A stretch of DNA of 40,942 nt from Acidilobaceae archaeon (GTDB lineage Archaea; Thermoproteota; Thermoprotei_A; Sulfolobales; Acidilobaceae): contig JAPYWV010000003.1 of NCBI GenBank assembly GCA_028276165.1, positions 1 through 40,942 on the forward strand, in the 5' to 3' direction. The notes under the pieces were generated by a model. That model was not told the DNA's origin, made no database searches, and saw only the letters and a list, made by a program, of their open reading frames with translations. Positions 382-34,081 of this stretch are shown piece after piece; the first letter of the stretch is position 1, and each line of letters starts with the position of its first letter. The position numbers and the translations under genes were made by a program.

Positions 382-1599
382 ATGGGGGCTTGGTTGTTTA
401 GGTTTATCCATGTTTCTGATACTCATCTTGGTGCTAGGCCTTACGGTCTTATCGAGAGGGAGAAGGATTTCTATGAGGCTTTCAGGTGGGTTGTTGATAG
501 GGCTTTGGAGCTCCGCGTTGATGCTGTGCTTCACGCTGGCGATATGTTTCACAGTTCTACCCCCAGGCCTGTGACCTACATCCATGCTATTAGGGAGTTG
601 AGGAGGCTTACTGGGGCTGGTGTTAGGTTCATAGTTGCTCCTGGTAACCACGAGTTGCCCAAGGCCGAGGCTCTCGGCTCCCCTATCAGGGTCTTGGAGG
701 ATCTGGGTTTAGCCTATGCCCCCAGGGATCCTGGTAGGCCTCATGCGGTCGAGTTCGAAGGTCTATCGGTTATAGTGTTCTCGGAGTGGGCCTCAGAGCA
801 TCTCAGCAGGGTCGACCCGGCATCCCTAACCAGGTCTAAGGTCAGGGTGGGGCTCGCCCACGTAACCCTCTGCGACGCCCTAGCGGAGGCTGAGGGCGTC
901 CCCTTGGAGAGGTGTGGTGGGCCTCGTAGGATGCTATCCTCCATGGTGAGAGGCGGCTACAGCTACCTAGCGTTAGGTGACATACACACGCCCTGGGAGC
1001 ACAGGGTTCCAGGAGCTCCCCCCATGGTCTACCCTGGTTCAACGGAGTACCTTGACGTAGACGAGTACAGGAGGAATAGTAGTAGGTACGTGTACCTCGT
1101 CGAGCTAGACGAGGGGGGCCTCGTTAGAGCTGAGAGGTTGAAGATAGAGACTGTGAGGCCTTGGATCGTAGTCGAGGGGGGTTACCAGGAGGTTTCAAGG
1201 ATCATTGAATCCGTTAGGAGGCCTCCCGGCAGTAAGGAGCCGATAGTCTACGTGAAGGTTAAAGGCACGCTAGACCAGGCTAGGAGGAGATCGCTCAAGG
1301 CAAGGCTCGACGCTCTCAGAGGAGATGGTGTGATATTGCACTATGATCTTGTGGTAGAGGAGAGGGGGGAGCCTAGGCGTGTATACACACCTCAAACCCT
1401 AAGCTTGGAGTCCATGTTGGAGAAGCTACTTGAAAGGTGTGGTGAGGGTATTAGGAGGGATCTGGTACACTTGCTAACAATGTTGTTAAACAACCCTGGG
1501 GATAGAGCTGTAGTTAGTAGCTTTGCCAGAGCCCTAGAGGAGAGGGGGGATCTGGTGGAGTGCATCAATAGAGCTTTTGGAGAGGGGTTTCCGAGATGA
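382..1599 (+). CDS. mre11: DNA double-strand break repair nuclease Mre11
   Basis: Metal-dependent (Mn) nuclease that, with Rad50, resects and tethers DNA double-strand breaks for homologous recombination. All metallophosphoesterase motifs are visible: DTH in HVSDTHLG (residues 10-17), AGD (52-54), GNHE (88-91), a histidine in LAHVT (about 160) and GDIH (199-202), followed by the capping region. At 405 aa it is of normal archaeal size. The ATG at 382 fits the upstream TATA box and places the first motif ten residues in, as in the family. Its TGA overlaps the rad50 ATG (ATGA), so the two are translationally coupled. NurA and HerA, the usual partners, are not in this window. Confidence 0.95.
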   Translation: MGAWLFRFIHVSDTHLGARPYGLIEREKDFYEAFRWVVDRALELRVDAVLHAGDMFHSSTPRPVTYIHAIRELRRLTGAGVRFIVAPGNHELPKAEALGSPIRVLEDLGLAYAPRDPGRPHAVEFEGLSVIVFSEWASEHLSRVDPASLTRSKVRVGLAHVTLCDALAEAEGVPLERCGGPRRMLSSMVRGGYSYLALGDIHTPWEHRVPGAPPMVYPGSTEYLDVDEYRRNSSRYVYLVELDEGGLVRAERLKIETVRPWIVVEGGYQEVSRIIESVRRPPGSKEPIVYVKVKGTLDQARRRSLKARLDALRGDGVILHYDLVVEERGEPRRVYTPQTLSLESMLEKLLERCGEGIRRDLVHLLTMLLNNPGDRAVVSSFARALEERGDLVECINRAFGEGFPR

Positions 1600-3908
1600 T
1601 AATTAGGGAGGTTGAGTTAAAGAACATACTATCGCATGAGAGTACTAGGGTTGAGTTCACACCTGGAATCAACGTCATAGTCGGGCCTAACGGTTCTGGT
1701 AAGAGCTCCATCATAGACTCGATACTACTATCCATGCTTGGAGCCTGCACTACATCAAGGGAGGTTGTGAGATCTGATCTAGGCGAGATCCTAAGGGTTG
1801 GAGCTCAAAGCGGCTACATAAGGGTTAAGTTCGAGATTGGTGGTTCAACGTATGTCGTGGAAAGGGTTATATCAAGGGATCTAGGTAGGACTACCTCCAC
1901 ATTGAAGCTAGAGAAGCTCGACGGCTCAACTCGTAAAACGCTAGCCTCAGGCAGGGAGCAGTTTTGCATGTGGATCCAATCACTCCTAGGCATAAGCGAC
2001 CCCCTCGTGCTAACATCAACACTTGTAGCTAGGCAGGGTTACCTAGCCGAGTTCATTGAGATGGAGCCTTCTAGGAGGAAGGAGAGGGTGTTAGACCTCG
2101 TGGGTTTAAGTAGGCTTGAGGAGGCTAGGGATGCTCTAGCTGATGAGGTTAAGAGGGTTACAGCTGAGGTGGCAGTCCTCGAGTCTAAGCAGAGGGATTA
2201 CAGGGAGAAGGAGAAGCGTGTTAAAAGCCTAGAGCAGGAGGTAGCTAGGATTGAGAAGAGCCTTGAGGATGCTAGGGGGCTTAGATCGAGGATCCAGAGT
2301 GAGCTAGAGAGGGTTAAGGAGGAGCTTGGAAGGCTGGAGGAGGCTCTAACGATAATAGCTAAGCTCAAGCCGTTGGAGGAGCTACGCAAGCAGATAGAGG
2401 ATGAGGAGTCTAGGGTTAGGGAGCTCGAGTCAAGACTATCAAGACTTGGAGATGTGGACGTCAAGGGGGTGGAGAAGCTCCTAGAGATGTGGGGTAGCGT
2501 GAGAACCCTAAACTCAAGGCTTAAATCAGACTCTGAGAGGCTTAGAAACCTGGAGTCAACCATAGCAAGGGTTGTAGAGGATCTTAGGAGGCTTGGGTTA
2601 AACCCTGAAGGTGACATCGTAGAATTCATATCTAGAGCTCTCCACGAGGTGGAAGAGGAGGAGTCAAGGCATAGAGAGCTCCTAGGATCGCTTGACGGTG
2701 AGCTGAGGACTCTAAACAACATTGTTAACGTGTCAGTTGAAAGCGATAGGTGTCCCCTGTGCGGGTCGCAGATTGGGAGGGATAGGCTTGAGCACATACT
2801 CATGGAGCATAGGGGTCGCCTAGAGGAGCTCAAGAGGAGGAGGGCTGAGGTTAGCTTGAAGCTCAGCCAGCTATCTAAACGGAAAGCTGTCCTCGAAGAT
2901 CTTAGGAGGAGGGCTGAGGTGGCATACATGGAGCTCCCACAGGTGAGGGAGAGGGTTCTAGAGGCTGAGAGTGAGATTAGAAGATTCCTAGAACTGTGCT
3001 CCAGCATAACCAGGACTAGTGTTAAAAAGGTTGAAGAATGCCCGGTAGAGGATCTTAGGATGCTCGTCGACGAGGTTAAATCGGTGAACGTAGCTCTAGC
3101 AGAGTCTAGGAGGAGGCTTGAAGAGCTTAAAGCTAGGTTCGATGAGGGTGAGTACAAGCTTTACAAGAGCTCCCTAGAGAAGCTCGGTGTAAGCGTGGAG
3201 GACGTGGAGTCCAGGTACCAGGAGGCTAGGAGGCTTCGTGGCAAGCTTGAGTTGGAGCTCTCGAAGGCTAATGAGAGCGTGCACAGGCTTGAGGGTGAGC
3301 TTAAGGCTAGGGTTGAGGAGCTCTCAAGGCTTAGGGTTGAGGTTGAGGGTTTAAGGGGGGAGCTCTCAAGGCTACAGGCTAAGAAGTCCACGCTAGCCGC
3401 CTTAGAGCTCCTAAGGGGTAGGGTTCTAGGTAAGAATGGCGTCCTAGCCAGGGTTCTAACGAGCACGCTTAGGGAGGCTCTCGAGGCTAACGTTAACAGT
3501 ATACTCGAAGCACTTGGTAGAGAGTTTAGGGTTAGGGTTACGGAGGGCTTCGACATAGAGGTTTCTAGTGGCGGTGCAACCCTCTCAACGAGATCCCTTA
3601 GCGGGGGTGAGAGGACACTATTATCAATAGCGTTCAGGCTAGCCCTAGCATCCATACTAGTCAAGAAACAGCTATCGATACTGGTGCTCGACGAGCCGAC
3701 AGAGTACCTGGATGAGAATAATAGGAGGCAGGTCTTCGACGTCATAGCTAGGGTTGCTGGTAGCGTGGATCAAGTGATAGTGGTGACACACGACGTAGAG
3801 GTTGAGGAGATAGCTGATAGGATAATCAGGGTCTACAAGGTTGGTGATAGGAGTGTAGTTGAGGTTGAGGAGGTGGCTAGAGCTCCAACCGCTCAAGCCT
3901 CCTCCTAA
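1596..3908 (+). CDS. rad50: DNA double-strand break repair ATPase Rad50
   Basis: SMC-like ATPase partner of Mre11. Visible parts in order: Walker A GPNGSGKSS (residues 30-38), Q-loop region near 140, long charged coiled coil (about 165-385), zinc hook CPLC (about 386-389), return coiled coil (about 395-640), ABC signature SLSGGERT (about 667-674), and Walker B LVLDEPTEYLD (about 693-703). It has 770 aa, at the shorter end for archaeal Rad50 because the coiled coil is modest. The start overlaps the mre11 stop by 4 bp. Its 3' end overlaps the convergent minus-strand gene by 32 bp, so the two transcripts can pair at their ends. Confidence 0.95.
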   Translation: MIIREVELKNILSHESTRVEFTPGINVIVGPNGSGKSSIIDSILLSMLGACTTSREVVRSDLGEILRVGAQSGYIRVKFEIGGSTYVVERVISRDLGRTTSTLKLEKLDGSTRKTLASGREQFCMWIQSLLGISDPLVLTSTLVARQGYLAEFIEMEPSRRKERVLDLVGLSRLEEARDALADEVKRVTAEVAVLESKQRDYREKEKRVKSLEQEVARIEKSLEDARGLRSRIQSELERVKEELGRLEEALTIIAKLKPLEELRKQIEDEESRVRELESRLSRLGDVDVKGVEKLLEMWGSVRTLNSRLKSDSERLRNLESTIARVVEDLRRLGLNPEGDIVEFISRALHEVEEEESRHRELLGSLDGELRTLNNIVNVSVESDRCPLCGSQIGRDRLEHILMEHRGRLEELKRRRAEVSLKLSQLSKRKAVLEDLRRRAEVAYMELPQVRERVLEAESEIRRFLELCSSITRTSVKKVEECPVEDLRMLVDEVKSVNVALAESRRRLEELKARFDEGEYKLYKSSLEKLGVSVEDVESRYQEARRLRGKLELELSKANESVHRLEGELKARVEELSRLRVEVEGLRGELSRLQAKKSTLAALELLRGRVLGKNGVLARVLTSTLREALEANVNSILEALGREFRVRVTEGFDIEVSSGGATLSTRSLSGGERTLLSIAFRLALASILVKKQLSILVLDEPTEYLDENNRRQVFDVIARVAGSVDQVIVVTHDVEVEEIADRIIRVYKVGDRSVVEVEEVARAPTAQASS

Positions 3909-5112
3909 CATATGCCTCGAAAATATCCGGCATAGTCTTCCTGACTATCTCGGCCACCTCAGTATCGCTCAGAGGCCTCCTCCTACCATTACTGAAAGCC
4001 TCTAAAACCATGTTGTATGCCTTGGAAACCCTCTCATCATCCTTCTCCACGAGCCCCTCAGGTACTCCGTGCTGTCTAAGCCAGAATACTATCGATGACC
4101 TCCCGGAGTAGGGTGTGATCTCGATGGTGTAGGGTACTCCTAGCACCTCCTCCGGGTCGAAGGGTAGGTAGACCTCGGGGTTCTTTAGGAGACCGTCAAT
4201 GTGTATACCAGCCTTCGTCTTAAAAGCGTTAGCTCCCACAAGTGGCTGGAACTCTGGGACCCTGAACCCGGCCTTCTCCAACACCCTAACAGCCTTCCAC
4301 ACAGCCTTTAGGTTAACCCTCTCCCCCTTTATGGAGGCGTAGTGTAGTAGCATAACCTCCAGCGGGCAGTTTCCAGCCCTCTCACCCACGCCTAATAGCG
4401 TGCAGTTTGACTCGAAAGCACCGCTCATCCAGGCCGAGAGGTGGTTTGTTACAACTAAACCCATATCATTGTGACCATGGAACCCTATGTTCTCAGGCTT
4501 GAAACCCAAGCTTCTAACGAGAGCTACAAGCCTTGGAATGCTCCTAGGTAGAGGAGCCTCCCTGAAGGGCACACCTAGCCCTAGTGTATCGGAGAGCCTA
4601 ACCTTAGCCTCGAAACCCTCCCTCTCAGCAAGCCTAAGGTACCTCTCAAGGAACAGGGCTACGAAGCCTGGATCAGCTCTAGTAACATCCTCAAGAGCAC
4701 ACTTAACAGTTAAACCCCTCCTATAAGCCTCACCGATCACCCCAAGGTACCTCTCAAGAGCCTCACTCCTGCTAAGACCAAGCTTGTAGTATATATGGTA
4801 ATCGGATATCGAGGTTAGCACAACAGTCTCCTCAAGACGGGCCTCTGATACGAGGCTTAGATCACTCCTGGAGGCCCTAATCCAGCCAACAACCCTAGGG
4901 TATTCGTAGCCTAGCTCTAGAAGCCTCCTAGCAACAACCCTATCCTTATCAGTGTACAGGAAGACCTCAGTACTAACAATAGCCCTGCCACCATTATTAA
5001 GCTCTACCAGGACCTCGTACAACTGGAGGGACTCCTCGACAGTGAAGTAACCGAAACCCTGCTGGCCGTCACGGAGAGTTGTGTCGGTCAAATAGATACC
5101 GTTAAGCTCCAC
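3877..5112 (-). CDS. DRE-TIM metallolyase, Re-citrate synthase / isopropylmalate synthase-like
   Basis: Acetyl-CoA-condensing aldolase-type enzyme. It shows the DRE-TIM signature DTTLRDGQQ (residues 10-18 from the start chosen here) and the metal-binding HGHND (about 212-216). Segments such as EVFLYTDKDR, GWIRAS, LTSISDYHIYYKLG and GERAGNCPLE resemble, from memory, the Re-citrate synthase-like branch rather than classic LeuA. There is no C-terminal LeuA regulatory domain. The listed ORF begins at 5256, but a TATA box (5138-5147) lies inside it, about 30 bp before an in-frame GTG at 5112. Starting there removes a Cys-rich, non-conserved 48-residue leader. The product could be citrate, homocitrate, citramalate or isopropylmalate. 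The family is secure; the substrate is not. Confidence 0.8.
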   Translation of the reverse strand: MELNGIYLTDTTLRDGQQGFGYFTVEESLQLYEVLVELNNGGRAIVSTEVFLYTDKDRVVARRLLELGYEYPRVVGWIRASRSDLSLVSEARLEETVVLTSISDYHIYYKLGLSRSEALERYLGVIGEAYRRGLTVKCALEDVTRADPGFVALFLERYLRLAEREGFEAKVRLSDTLGLGVPFREAPLPRSIPRLVALVRSLGFKPENIGFHGHNDMGLVVTNHLSAWMSGAFESNCTLLGVGERAGNCPLEVMLLHYASIKGERVNLKAVWKAVRVLEKAGFRVPEFQPLVGANAFKTKAGIHIDGLLKNPEVYLPFDPEEVLGVPYTIEITPYSGRSSIVFWLRQHGVPEGLVEKDDERVSKAYNMVLEAFSNGRRRPLSDTEVAEIVRKTMPDIFEAYVRRRLERLEL

Positions 5113-5137
5113 ACCATCGAAAACAAGCCTAGGCAGA

Positions 5138-5147
5138 CTATTTAAAA
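5138..5147 (-). promoter_or_regulatory. TATA box for the DRE-TIM metallolyase gene
   Basis: On the minus strand the element reads TTTTAAATAG, centred about 30 bp before the in-frame GTG at 5112. It supports that start over the longer ORF starting at 5256. A second AT-rich element (CTTAAATACC on the minus strand) lies farther upstream, near 5190-5200. Confidence 0.5.
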
Positions 5148-5278
5148 GACATCCCTCCAACACCGAGATTCCAGTAAGAATACTTAGACAGGTATTTAAG
5201 CGTTTCCACCGACATCTGTCGAAAATAATAGTTTTTAGGCAAGAGCCCCCTATCACGTTAAGTTCTAGGAGGGGTGTT

Positions 5279-6151
5279 TCACGCCACCACCAGTACAGAT
5301 CCTATTAGGGTTAACAGGGAGGATGTTAGAGTACTCAACTTGAACACCTCCCCCGTGCGCCTCGATAGTAGGCTGGCTGTCACGGTGGCCGCCACAGGCC
5401 TGGTGTTCTGTAACGGTGTTACCATGCTCACACCAACACCCATTAGTGCAACGTACCTGGCAGCCTGCCCTAGAGCTGCTAGTAGACCAGCTAACGCGAT
5501 GTAGGTTAGCTGTCCTCTCCCTAGAGCTCCAACCCCGATCCCACCACTCCTAAGTGCTAGGAGGACCTCTACGAGTAACCCCGAGCTGTAAGCTATGAGG
5601 ACACCCGCTATCGGATTCCCACTCTCAAGGTTACCAAGCCTCCCCAGGGTTATAGCGATAGCCATTGAGAGCCCTGCTAGGAGCCCGAAGAACACGCCGG
5701 TCAAATCAAGCCTCCCCAAACCCCCACCTTGGACCAGGAGCACTACAGCGAGGAGGAGTAGGAGGGATCCAGCTATCCTCGGGAGACCTATAGGCTCTCC
5801 GAGAGCCAACCCTATAAGGAGATTGTAGATAACACTAGTGGACACCAGAACACTGGTAGCCCCAGCTCCAATCCTACCAATAGCACGGTACATAGAAGCC
5901 CTCCCCACAGGGAAGTTGACAACACCGGCCAACACATAGAAGGTGAAAGCCTTCAAACCAACAAGCTCGAAACCACCAAGAGCGAAGGCCAAGATGAGTA
6001 TAACAGGGTAACCAGCAATAAGGGAGACCAAGACCCCACTACCAGCATCCCTTAAACCGGAGACCCTCACGGTAACATCGTGTAAGCCGAAGAGCAACCC
6101 AGTTGACACTGCAGCTGGAATGGCCAGGTAGGCGGTGTCCACGCGAAGCAC
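5279..6151 (-). CDS. EamA/DMT-superfamily transporter, ten membrane helices
   Basis: A very hydrophobic 290-aa protein with about ten transmembrane segments arranged as two similar halves, each with the Gly/Ala-rich helices and an internal P-rich turn typical of EamA (drug/metabolite transporter) proteins. The region SVIYNLLIGLALGEPIGLPR and the repeat region near TPLQNTRPVAA match the conserved helix ends of the family. The substrate cannot be told. The GTG start at 6151 follows TTTAAG-like boxes at about 6168-6182 (minus strand), consistent with a leaderless message. It runs in the same direction as the metallolyase but is separated from it by 166 bp with its own promoter, so co-transcription is uncertain. 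Confidence 0.8.
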   Translation of the reverse strand: MLRVDTAYLAIPAAVSTGLLFGLHDVTVRVSGLRDAGSGVLVSLIAGYPVILILAFALGGFELVGLKAFTFYVLAGVVNFPVGRASMYRAIGRIGAGATSVLVSTSVIYNLLIGLALGEPIGLPRIAGSLLLLLAVVLLVQGGGLGRLDLTGVFFGLLAGLSMAIAITLGRLGNLESGNPIAGVLIAYSSGLLVEVLLALRSGGIGVGALGRGQLTYIALAGLLAALGQAARYVALMGVGVSMVTPLQNTRPVAATVTASLLSRRTGEVFKLSTLTSSLLTLIGSVLVVA

Positions 6152-9818: not shown

Positions 9819-9896
9819 GCCGCGGTAGTATAGCCTGGACGAGTATGCGGGCCTGTCAAGCCCGTGACCCGGGTTCAAATCCCGGCCGCGGCGCCA
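9819..9896 (+). tRNA. tRNA-Asp (anticodon GTC), CCA encoded
   Basis: The full cloverleaf can be drawn. Acceptor stem GCCGCGG (9819-9825) pairs with CCGCGGC (9886-9892). Anticodon arm is CGGGC-CTGTCAA-GCCCG with anticodon GTC. T arm is CCGGG-TTCAAAT-CCCGG. The discriminator is G (9893) and CCA is encoded (9894-9896). No intron is present. It delivers aspartate to GAC/GAU codons. The GatCAB operon farther downstream acts on mischarged tRNA-Asn or tRNA-Gln, not on this tRNA. Confidence 0.97.
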
Positions 9897-32779: not shown

Positions 32780-33991
32780 TTACCTCCTACACCTAACCTC
32801 CATGGGCTGGTATTTGAGGCCTACAGGGCCCACGTACTTCTCGGTTGGCCTTATAAGCCTGTTATCGAGCACCTGCTCTATGTAGTGTGAAGTCCACCCT
32901 ACAACCCTGCCCATCGCGAATATTGGGGTGTACATGGGTATGTCTATTCCAAGCTGGTAGTATAGGATCGCGGTGTACAAGTCTATGTTTGATGGGAGCC
33001 TCTTAGACTCCCACATGACCTTCTCGGCGTTCTTCAGGACCTTTAACCACATATCTCCATCCTTAAGCTGTTTTATGTAGTAGGCTGCAACATCAGTTCT
33101 AGGATCTTTGATCTTGTAAACCCTATGCCCAAACCCCATAATCCTCTCCTTCCTAGCAAGCTTCTCCTTGATATACTCTACAATGTACTCCTCCAGGGGT
33201 ACACCCTTCTCCACAGCCTTCCTCCAAGCATCAAGGAACATCTTCATAGCCTCCTCGTTAGCACCACCGTGTAATGGGCCTTTCAAAGCAGCTATACCCG
33301 CTGCTATAGCACTATACATATCGCTTAAGGTGCTAGCTACAACTCTTACAGTGAAGGCTGAAGCGTTGAAACCATGGTCCATGTATAGTACGAGGCTTGA
33401 CTCGAAAGCTCTAGCTTCGAGAGCCGAAGGCTCCCTCATGGTTATCATCCTAAGGAGATCCCAGGCGTGATCAGCTCCACTCTCAGGCCTCACAAAGGTT
33501 CCATAATACGCTAGGTTATATGCTGCAGCGAATATAACTGGAAGCTGAGCTATAAGCCTTATCTGGTGCTCGTAGAGCGAGTCCTTATCTAAGCTCCACT
33601 CTGGAGCGTAGAGCTGGCCTAGTAGTAGGGCTCCATAAGCGCCATAGTACATGGGGTGAGTCTTAGGTAACATCTTAAGAGCGTCGTAAACCTTCTCTGG
33701 AACCCTACCCCTCCAGTAATCAACCCTCTTCTTAAACTCCTTGTACTCATCCTCACAGGGTAGAACACCACGTGATATGAGGTATGCTGCTTCGTAGAAG
33801 TTAGCATTCATCCCTAGATCCTCTATAGTGTAACCCCTGTAGAGGGTCTGCTCCCCCCTGGGGTCAACACCACTTATAGCGGTGGTATCAGGTATAACCT
33901 GCTCCAACCCCTTGGGGACGACTATGAAGGTACCAAGACCTGGTATCTCCTCAAGCTTACACTCAACACGTTTAAGTAGCTCGCCACTCAT
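32780..33991 (-). CDS. gltA: Citrate synthase (Si type)
   Basis: Condenses acetyl-CoA with oxaloacetate. Catalytic residues are in GPLHGGANEEAM (His about 239), MGFGHRVYK (His about 277) and SNIDLYTAI (Asp about 329). DHGFNASAFTVRV and LYRGYTIEDL are also conserved. I take ATG 33991 (MSGELLKR, 403 aa), preceded by GGGG and lying 26 bp after a start expected from TTTATTAGG (minus strand, about 34031-34040). TTG 34030 from the track is the alternative, with a more distal AATATAAG-like box. 2-Methylcitrate synthase activity cannot be excluded from sequence alone. Confidence 0.93.
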   Translation of the reverse strand: MSGELLKRVECKLEEIPGLGTFIVVPKGLEQVIPDTTAISGVDPRGEQTLYRGYTIEDLGMNANFYEAAYLISRGVLPCEDEYKEFKKRVDYWRGRVPEKVYDALKMLPKTHPMYYGAYGALLLGQLYAPEWSLDKDSLYEHQIRLIAQLPVIFAAAYNLAYYGTFVRPESGADHAWDLLRMITMREPSALEARAFESSLVLYMDHGFNASAFTVRVVASTLSDMYSAIAAGIAALKGPLHGGANEEAMKMFLDAWRKAVEKGVPLEEYIVEYIKEKLARKERIMGFGHRVYKIKDPRTDVAAYYIKQLKDGDMWLKVLKNAEKVMWESKRLPSNIDLYTAILYYQLGIDIPMYTPIFAMGRVVGWTSHYIEQVLDNRLIRPTEKYVGPVGLKYQPMEVRCRR

Positions 33992-34081
33992 ACCAGACCC
34001 CCTAGGCCAGGGTAGTTTGTAGTTATTCAAACCTAATAAACATTATTCTTATATTAAGATATATACTTTTCGATGTACGAA

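Follow-up and report, generated by a model that had tools for sequence, protein, structure and literature searches.

Why would a heat-loving archaeon that possesses a Si-citrate synthase also carry, on the same stretch of DNA, a gene resembling those for the unrelated Re-citrate synthases? The window analysed here (the whole stretch of DNA, 40,942 nucleotides) is an entire contig, one of 158 in a draft archaeal genome of 1.71 Mb with 87% completeness. A first-pass annotation, made from the letters alone, had singled out a DRE-TIM enzyme gene at 3877-5112 and proposed either a second enzyme for citrate formation or another product such as citramalate or homocitrate. From comparative sequence analysis and structure modelling, we consider it quite probable that 3877-5163 encodes a Re-citrate synthase, that this solitary gene was apparently acquired separately, and that it probably duplicates the citrate-forming step of the Si enzyme. 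The relevant features are the following, with the basis of each in brackets.

3877..5163, minus strand: DRE-TIM acyltransferase of the Re-citrate synthase clade (open reading frame, Pfam, tree 100/100, start codons, AF2 order)
5059..5085, minus strand: DTTLRDGQQ, the catalytic DRE motif, in which Q replaces the E of LeuA/HCS (alignment)
4939..4968, minus strand: EVFLYTDKDR, a clade-specific block; AG[FHW]P in LeuA/HCS/CimA (alignment)
4870..4887, minus strand: GWIRAS block (alignment)
4777..4812, minus strand: SISDYHIYYKLG block (alignment)
4534..4548, minus strand: PRSIP, whose leading PR belongs to an insert specific to this clade and missing from LeuA/HCS/CimA/NifV (alignment)
4465..4479, minus strand: HGHND, the HxH metal-binding motif of DRE-TIM enzymes (alignment)
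1596..3908, plus strand: rad50, convergent with the enzyme gene and overlapping its 3' end by 32 bp (Pfam, congener match)
5279..6151, minus strand: EamA-family transporter gene, upstream of the enzyme gene on the same strand (Pfam)
32780..34030, minus strand: Si-citrate synthase (PF00285) with its catalytic residues kept (Pfam, alignment)

The DRE-TIM gene is intact. The open frame on the minus strand extends over 3877-5256 (459 codons, GTG start, from the listing of open reading frames), and its product matches the Pfam family HMGL-like at 110 bits and HCS_D2, the post-barrel domain of homocitrate synthases, at 36 bits. Profile searches of the draft genome recovered no other PF00682 gene. 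The GTG at 5163 is the likeliest start codon and would yield a protein of 428 aa; it is favoured because homology begins at about residue 38 (LLNSLPRLVFDG), residues 1-37 are predicted to be disordered, and most relatives are 423-451 aa long. The start at 5112 chosen in the first-pass annotation is an in-frame GTG but probably leaves the gene too short, as homology reaches upstream of it. The AF2 model (mean pLDDT 89.7) finds its best structural matches among proteins of the homocitrate/isopropylmalate synthase type, and the nearest solved structures, by sequence as well as by fold, are the homocitrate/isopropylmalate synthases 6ktq and 6e1j.

To which branch of the superfamily does this protein belong? 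In a maximum-likelihood tree of 67 rows (LG+C20, PMSF), 47 Re-type rows including the window protein separate from 20 rows on the LeuA/CimA/HCS/NifV side with support of 100/100, the main outgroup rows having been assigned by NCBIfam cut-offs. The phylogeny that had been proposed as a check thus places the window protein outside LeuA, CimA and HCS and within the Re-citrate synthase clade, together with bacterial Re-citrate synthase relatives and a protein of Ignicoccus hospitalis. None of the NCBIfam equivalogs for LeuA, CimA, HCS and NifV came near its cut-off with the window protein (the best, NifV, gave 169 bits against 463), and an identity as any of these four enzymes was rejected on the tree and the HMM cut-offs. 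A residue fingerprint agrees with this placement: at columns that are at least 90% constant among clade members and whose residue hardly occurs in other proteins, scored over RDGQQ, E.FLY, WIRA, S.SDYHI, the PR insert and T347 in place of H, the window protein carries 25 of the 27 clade-marking residues and the other families carry 0-3. Likewise, of 74 columns with at least 95% conservation across bacteria and genomes devoid of Si-citrate synthase, it matches 72; its two deviations, P201L and E258G, count against the Re reading. Three of the blocks first cited as diagnostic (EVFLYTDKDR, GWIRAS and that at 4777..4812) do mark the Re clade; the fourth, NCPLE, is a weak marker, E. coli LeuA having NCSLE.

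The bacterial reference sequences came from a search of GTDB genomes with an alignment headed by an approximate consensus bait, which served for this search only and enters no tree or other later analysis. This search yielded 558 candidate stretches with relatives, and the best 80 of the 558, which are 67-76% identical to the bait, were retained; they derive from anammox bacteria, Desulfovibrio, Syntrophales, Lachnospiraceae, Paenibacillus and others. The tie to the biochemically proven enzymes of C. kluyveri and Syntrophus, whose sequences lie outside the tree, runs via Kuenenia (L105), in which genes for both subunits of an ADP-forming succinate-CoA ligase follow the Re-type gene. The same succinate-CoA ligase neighbours are reported for the K. 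stuttgartiensis gene, which shares 55.1% identity with the Re-citrate synthase of C. kluyveri (PMC8027424). Two clades of Re-citrate synthases, about 28% identical to one another, have been described, the second being the HM1_2993 type of Heliomicrobium, Thermoanaerobacter and C. difficile (PMC12016533). Several bacterial Re-like genes have features of their own: frames of about 600 aa in L085, L087, L091, L108 and L124 compared with 430-460 aa elsewhere; on two Deinococcus plasmids (L039:4664-7242, L040:2609-5211), a Re-like gene divergent beside a gene annotated 'citrate/2-methylcitrate synthase', so that the two unrelated types are neighbours; and, in strain QL22, a Re-like gene broken into two CDS. 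A PF00285 citrate synthase is also found in 6 of 14 Re-bearing bacterial genomes (G154-G156, G159, G160 and G167), three Paenibacillus species among them.

The distribution of the clade among class Thermoproteia speaks to the reaction that its members catalyse. Among 147 genomes of the class, 35 have the Re gene and 70 a Si-citrate synthase. In the 100 that carry genes of both the aconitase family and the isocitrate/isopropylmalate dehydrogenase family, 61 have only Si-citrate synthase and 25 only the Re gene, whereas 9 have both and 5 have neither, a tendency to mutual replacement with a Fisher p of 1.6e-11 when kinship is ignored; in the other 47, Si is found in 0 and Re in 1, a draft. Re-only genomes turn up in a large number of families, and in f1, f3 and f10, which are mixed, sister genera differ in state. 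By this pattern of presence, the Re gene takes the place of Si-citrate synthase. It stands first in an operon in about 15 relatives, where it is followed by genes for LeuC-like and LeuD-like subunits, which would form a two-subunit aconitase, and for a dehydrogenase (about 345 aa). Nearly all of these dehydrogenases have S-x-N in the substrate loop (e.g. SVNVLIRRELDLYANIRP), as true isocitrate dehydrogenases do, and the LeuB proteins of the same genomes, used as a control, do not. The two positions are those of Ser113 and Asn115 in E. coli isocitrate dehydrogenase, which bind the gamma-carboxylate of the substrate. No NCBIfam equivalog cut-off is reached by the operon dehydrogenase, whose assignment as isocitrate-type rests on the S-x-N motif. 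In bacterial relatives with the same gene order, the partner is either an NADP-isocitrate dehydrogenase that exceeds its cut-off (L108) or a true aconitase (L119). Two Re-like genes each occur in G039 (L069:5601-6884 and L046:7585-8883, one of them within the operon and the other outside it) and in G050 (L064, L065).

The operon context and the replacement of Si-citrate synthase support citrate as the product of the clade enzymes. Citramalate and homocitrate, the alternatives first entertained, are disfavoured by the tree, by the residue fingerprint, by the operon partners of the relatives and by that same replacement. In this superfamily, the metal held by the HxH motif binds the 2-oxoacid, and the DRE barrel supplies general acid/base residues: the acetyl-CoA enolate attacks the 2-oxoacid, and the resulting CoA thioester, here citryl-CoA, is then hydrolysed. 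The enzyme would be a divalent metal-dependent TIM-barrel member in which acetyl-CoA attacks oxaloacetate from its Re face, with release of citrate and CoA, and in most of the Re-bearing relatives among Thermoproteia it would be the only citrate synthase, supplying aconitase and isocitrate dehydrogenase for formation of 2-oxoglutarate and glutamate. We infer from its clade and context that the window enzyme would likewise accept oxaloacetate; its catalysis and stereochemistry, its expression and any motive for retaining two synthases are likewise conjectured, and what was observed directly is the clade, the residue fingerprint, the predicted fold, the operons of the relatives, the replacement pattern and the intact frame.

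Ignicoccus hospitalis provides a control. An archaeal Re-citrate synthase has been reported for Ignicoccus (Jahn et al. 2007, as cited in PMC12016533). The I. hospitalis genome (G035) contains four full-length DRE-TIM acyltransferase genes; one each scores above the NCBIfam cut-off for IPMS, HCS and CimA, and the fourth falls in the clade of the window protein. A Pfam search of this genome found no PF00285 gene. With IPMS, HCS and CimA already assigned to the other three, the fourth gene (G035:C1:225373-226656) would, by elimination, be the Re-citrate synthase.

In the window genome, the Si-citrate synthase lies 28.9 kb from the Re-type gene, start to start, in keeping with the normal gltA noted at about 29 kb. 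It matches Pfam Citrate_synt at 367 bits, a family-level match that stays under the NCBIfam equivalog cut-offs, and its alignment retains the LHGGAN and GFGHR catalytic blocks and the Asp of the last block. Other contigs of the genome encode AcnA (L070) and an NADP-isocitrate dehydrogenase (510.6 bits, NCBIfam cut-off 484), and the window Re gene has no aconitase or isocitrate dehydrogenase neighbours. For AcnA and isocitrate dehydrogenase the two synthases are redundant, as citrate from either is the same molecule. Mis-binning was rejected as the source of the coexistence: both genes are on one 41-kb contig, and the Re gene is flanked on both sides by DNA matching members of the genus. The pair had been judged potentially notable, and both genes do reside on one contig, but such coexistence is already known from C. 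thermocellum and C. kluyveri. In C. thermocellum, both enzymes were found to be active by 13C labelling, and the Re gene adjoins that for aconitase (PMC6115520); C. kluyveri is cited there as a second species with two citrate synthases. The same study calls the reason for the coexistence an open question; for clostridia, oxygen sensitivity of the Re enzyme has been proposed (PMC6115520).

The presence of a Si-citrate synthase could also have freed the Re copy for another task, with a longer dicarboxylic 2-oxoacid or some other acceptor and a different product. The window gene is an orphan in a Si-bearing genome, and divergence of this kind is visible elsewhere. In G006 and G112, which belong to the same family as the window genome and also have both enzymes, the Re-like protein (L063:6744-7985; L067:706-1917) is strongly diverged (Q65M, S151G, D152P and Y153L, hence the loss of Q65, D152 and Y153), and its gene adjoins those for aconitase-like subunits in an operon that lacks the dehydrogenase. 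In the Si-bearing genomes G094 and G100 (L073:4838-8944; L057), SITL replaces S-x-N in the dehydrogenase encoded by the Re operon, the N being lost, and it is possible that the whole Re module has been retooled there; G100 also has a cluster of Si-citrate synthase, isocitrate dehydrogenase and AcnA genes apart from its Re operon (G100:C1:1897027-1901329). For the window protein, a change of task is nevertheless rather unlikely: the G006/G112 proteins deviate at 10-11 of the 74 conserved columns, the SDYHI block included, and the window protein, with its near-complete set of both clade-specific and conserved residues, is far above them. The window copy thus looks functional; retooling may have befallen other copies that share a genome with the Si enzyme.

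Where did the window copy come from? Genome searches found no Re gene in five congeners. G098, the nearest congener, has both flanking regions (88-98% identity), though not adjacent to each other, different genes being found upstream of the ferredoxin-oxidoreductase genes. The window rad50 gene is 98% identical to that of G098 at the amino acid level over 215 residues, tying the enzyme gene to the genus at its 3' end. Forcing the window protein into one clade with its family-mates in G006/G112 lowers the likelihood (p-AU 0.0126, for a group picked after inspection of the tree), and on this test the family-mates were rejected as the source of the gene. The window copy is therefore probably a separate acquisition, given its absence from the five congeners, its solitary position in a genome that also encodes the Si enzyme, aconitase and isocitrate dehydrogenase, and the p-AU value. 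The missing operon partners weigh against the Re-citrate synthase reading; no LeuC-like one was found in the window genome, whose one PF00330 match in the 87% complete draft is AcnA. An operon with the EamA gene was considered and rejected, this arrangement being seen in the window only and without support. Further along, a tRNA-Asp (GTC) gene at 9819-9896, after the 2-oxoacid:ferredoxin oxidoreductase genes, accounts for the many dispersed DNA matches around it.

The same absence from congeners, the rearranged flanks in G098 and the separation from the family-mates in the tree would also suit a recent acquisition that has no role, is decaying or is an artefact of an assembly join, and a join may lie between 3.9 and 6.7 kb in the window. 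This is improbable on the whole: the frame is full-length and its conserved residues are in place, no foreign base composition was seen in the Re gene, whose G+C is like that of the rest, the flanking DNA on either side is that of the genus, and rad50 is overlapped by the gene. Least likely of all is that an enzyme of the leucine, isoleucine or lysine pathway (LeuA, CimA or homocitrate synthase) has been mistaken for a Re-citrate synthase, a very remote prospect despite the common fold, the DRE and HxH motifs and the nearest solved structures, since it is contradicted by the tree and the equivalog scores, by a genome with AcnA and no LeuC-type PF00330 gene, and by I. hospitalis, which carries all three enzymes plus a Re-clade gene.

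A probable Re-citrate synthase at this locus touches on a broader gap. Pyrodictium and most Desulfurococcales are said to lack citrate synthase, and the cycle of Pyrodictium delaneyi, whose genome was described as lacking the gene, was inferred to run backwards (PMC5556600). In several of the sampled families that are devoid of Si-citrate synthase, the Re gene is part of an operon for the steps from citrate to 2-oxoglutarate, and the Re clade probably fills the missing citrate synthase gap of many Thermoproteia, offering a sequence-based answer to it. When the tree is rooted on LeuA/HCS/CimA, all bacterial rows nest in an archaeal grade (branches 96/88, 100/99 and 99/99), although the bacterial sample behind an archaeal origin is skewed by the bait used. 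It is tempting to speculate, with distinctly less assurance, that the Re enzyme with a LeuCD-type aconitase and isocitrate dehydrogenase was the older citrate route of Thermoproteia, that the bacterial enzymes of the C. kluyveri type are archaeal-derived, and that the window lineage regained the gene. The kind of enzyme, an archaeal case and Re/Si coexistence are already known. No account of how widely the operon occurs in Thermoproteia, or of archaeal genomes with both Re and Si genes, was found in the open-access literature searched, which is weak evidence. These genomes provide archaeal cases in which to study Re/Si coexistence, several with visible divergence of the Re module.

Of the known systems, the C. 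kluyveri-type Re-citrate synthase (EC 2.3.3.3; Li et al. 2007, as cited in PMC12016533, PMC8027424 and PMC6115520) shares with the window protein its DRE-TIM clade, by way of bacterial relatives such as that of Kuenenia, and its fingerprint; the window protein differs in being 35-39% identical to the bacterial members, archaeal, probably thermophilic and encoded by a solitary gene. The I. hospitalis enzyme is a fellow archaeal member of the clade, 44% identical, but its genome, unlike that of the window, has no Si-citrate synthase, and it lies nearer to the bacterial proteins in the tree. The homocitrate, isopropylmalate and citramalate synthases have the fold and the DRE and HxH motifs in common with the window protein, yet are 25-29% identical to it, form a separate clade and share at most 3 of the 27 clade-specific residues. 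A parallel in gene content is C. thermocellum, in which two unrelated citrate synthases also coexist in one genome; there the pair is known by its activity and the Re gene sits beside that for aconitase, whereas the window pair is known from its genes and has no aconitase neighbour.
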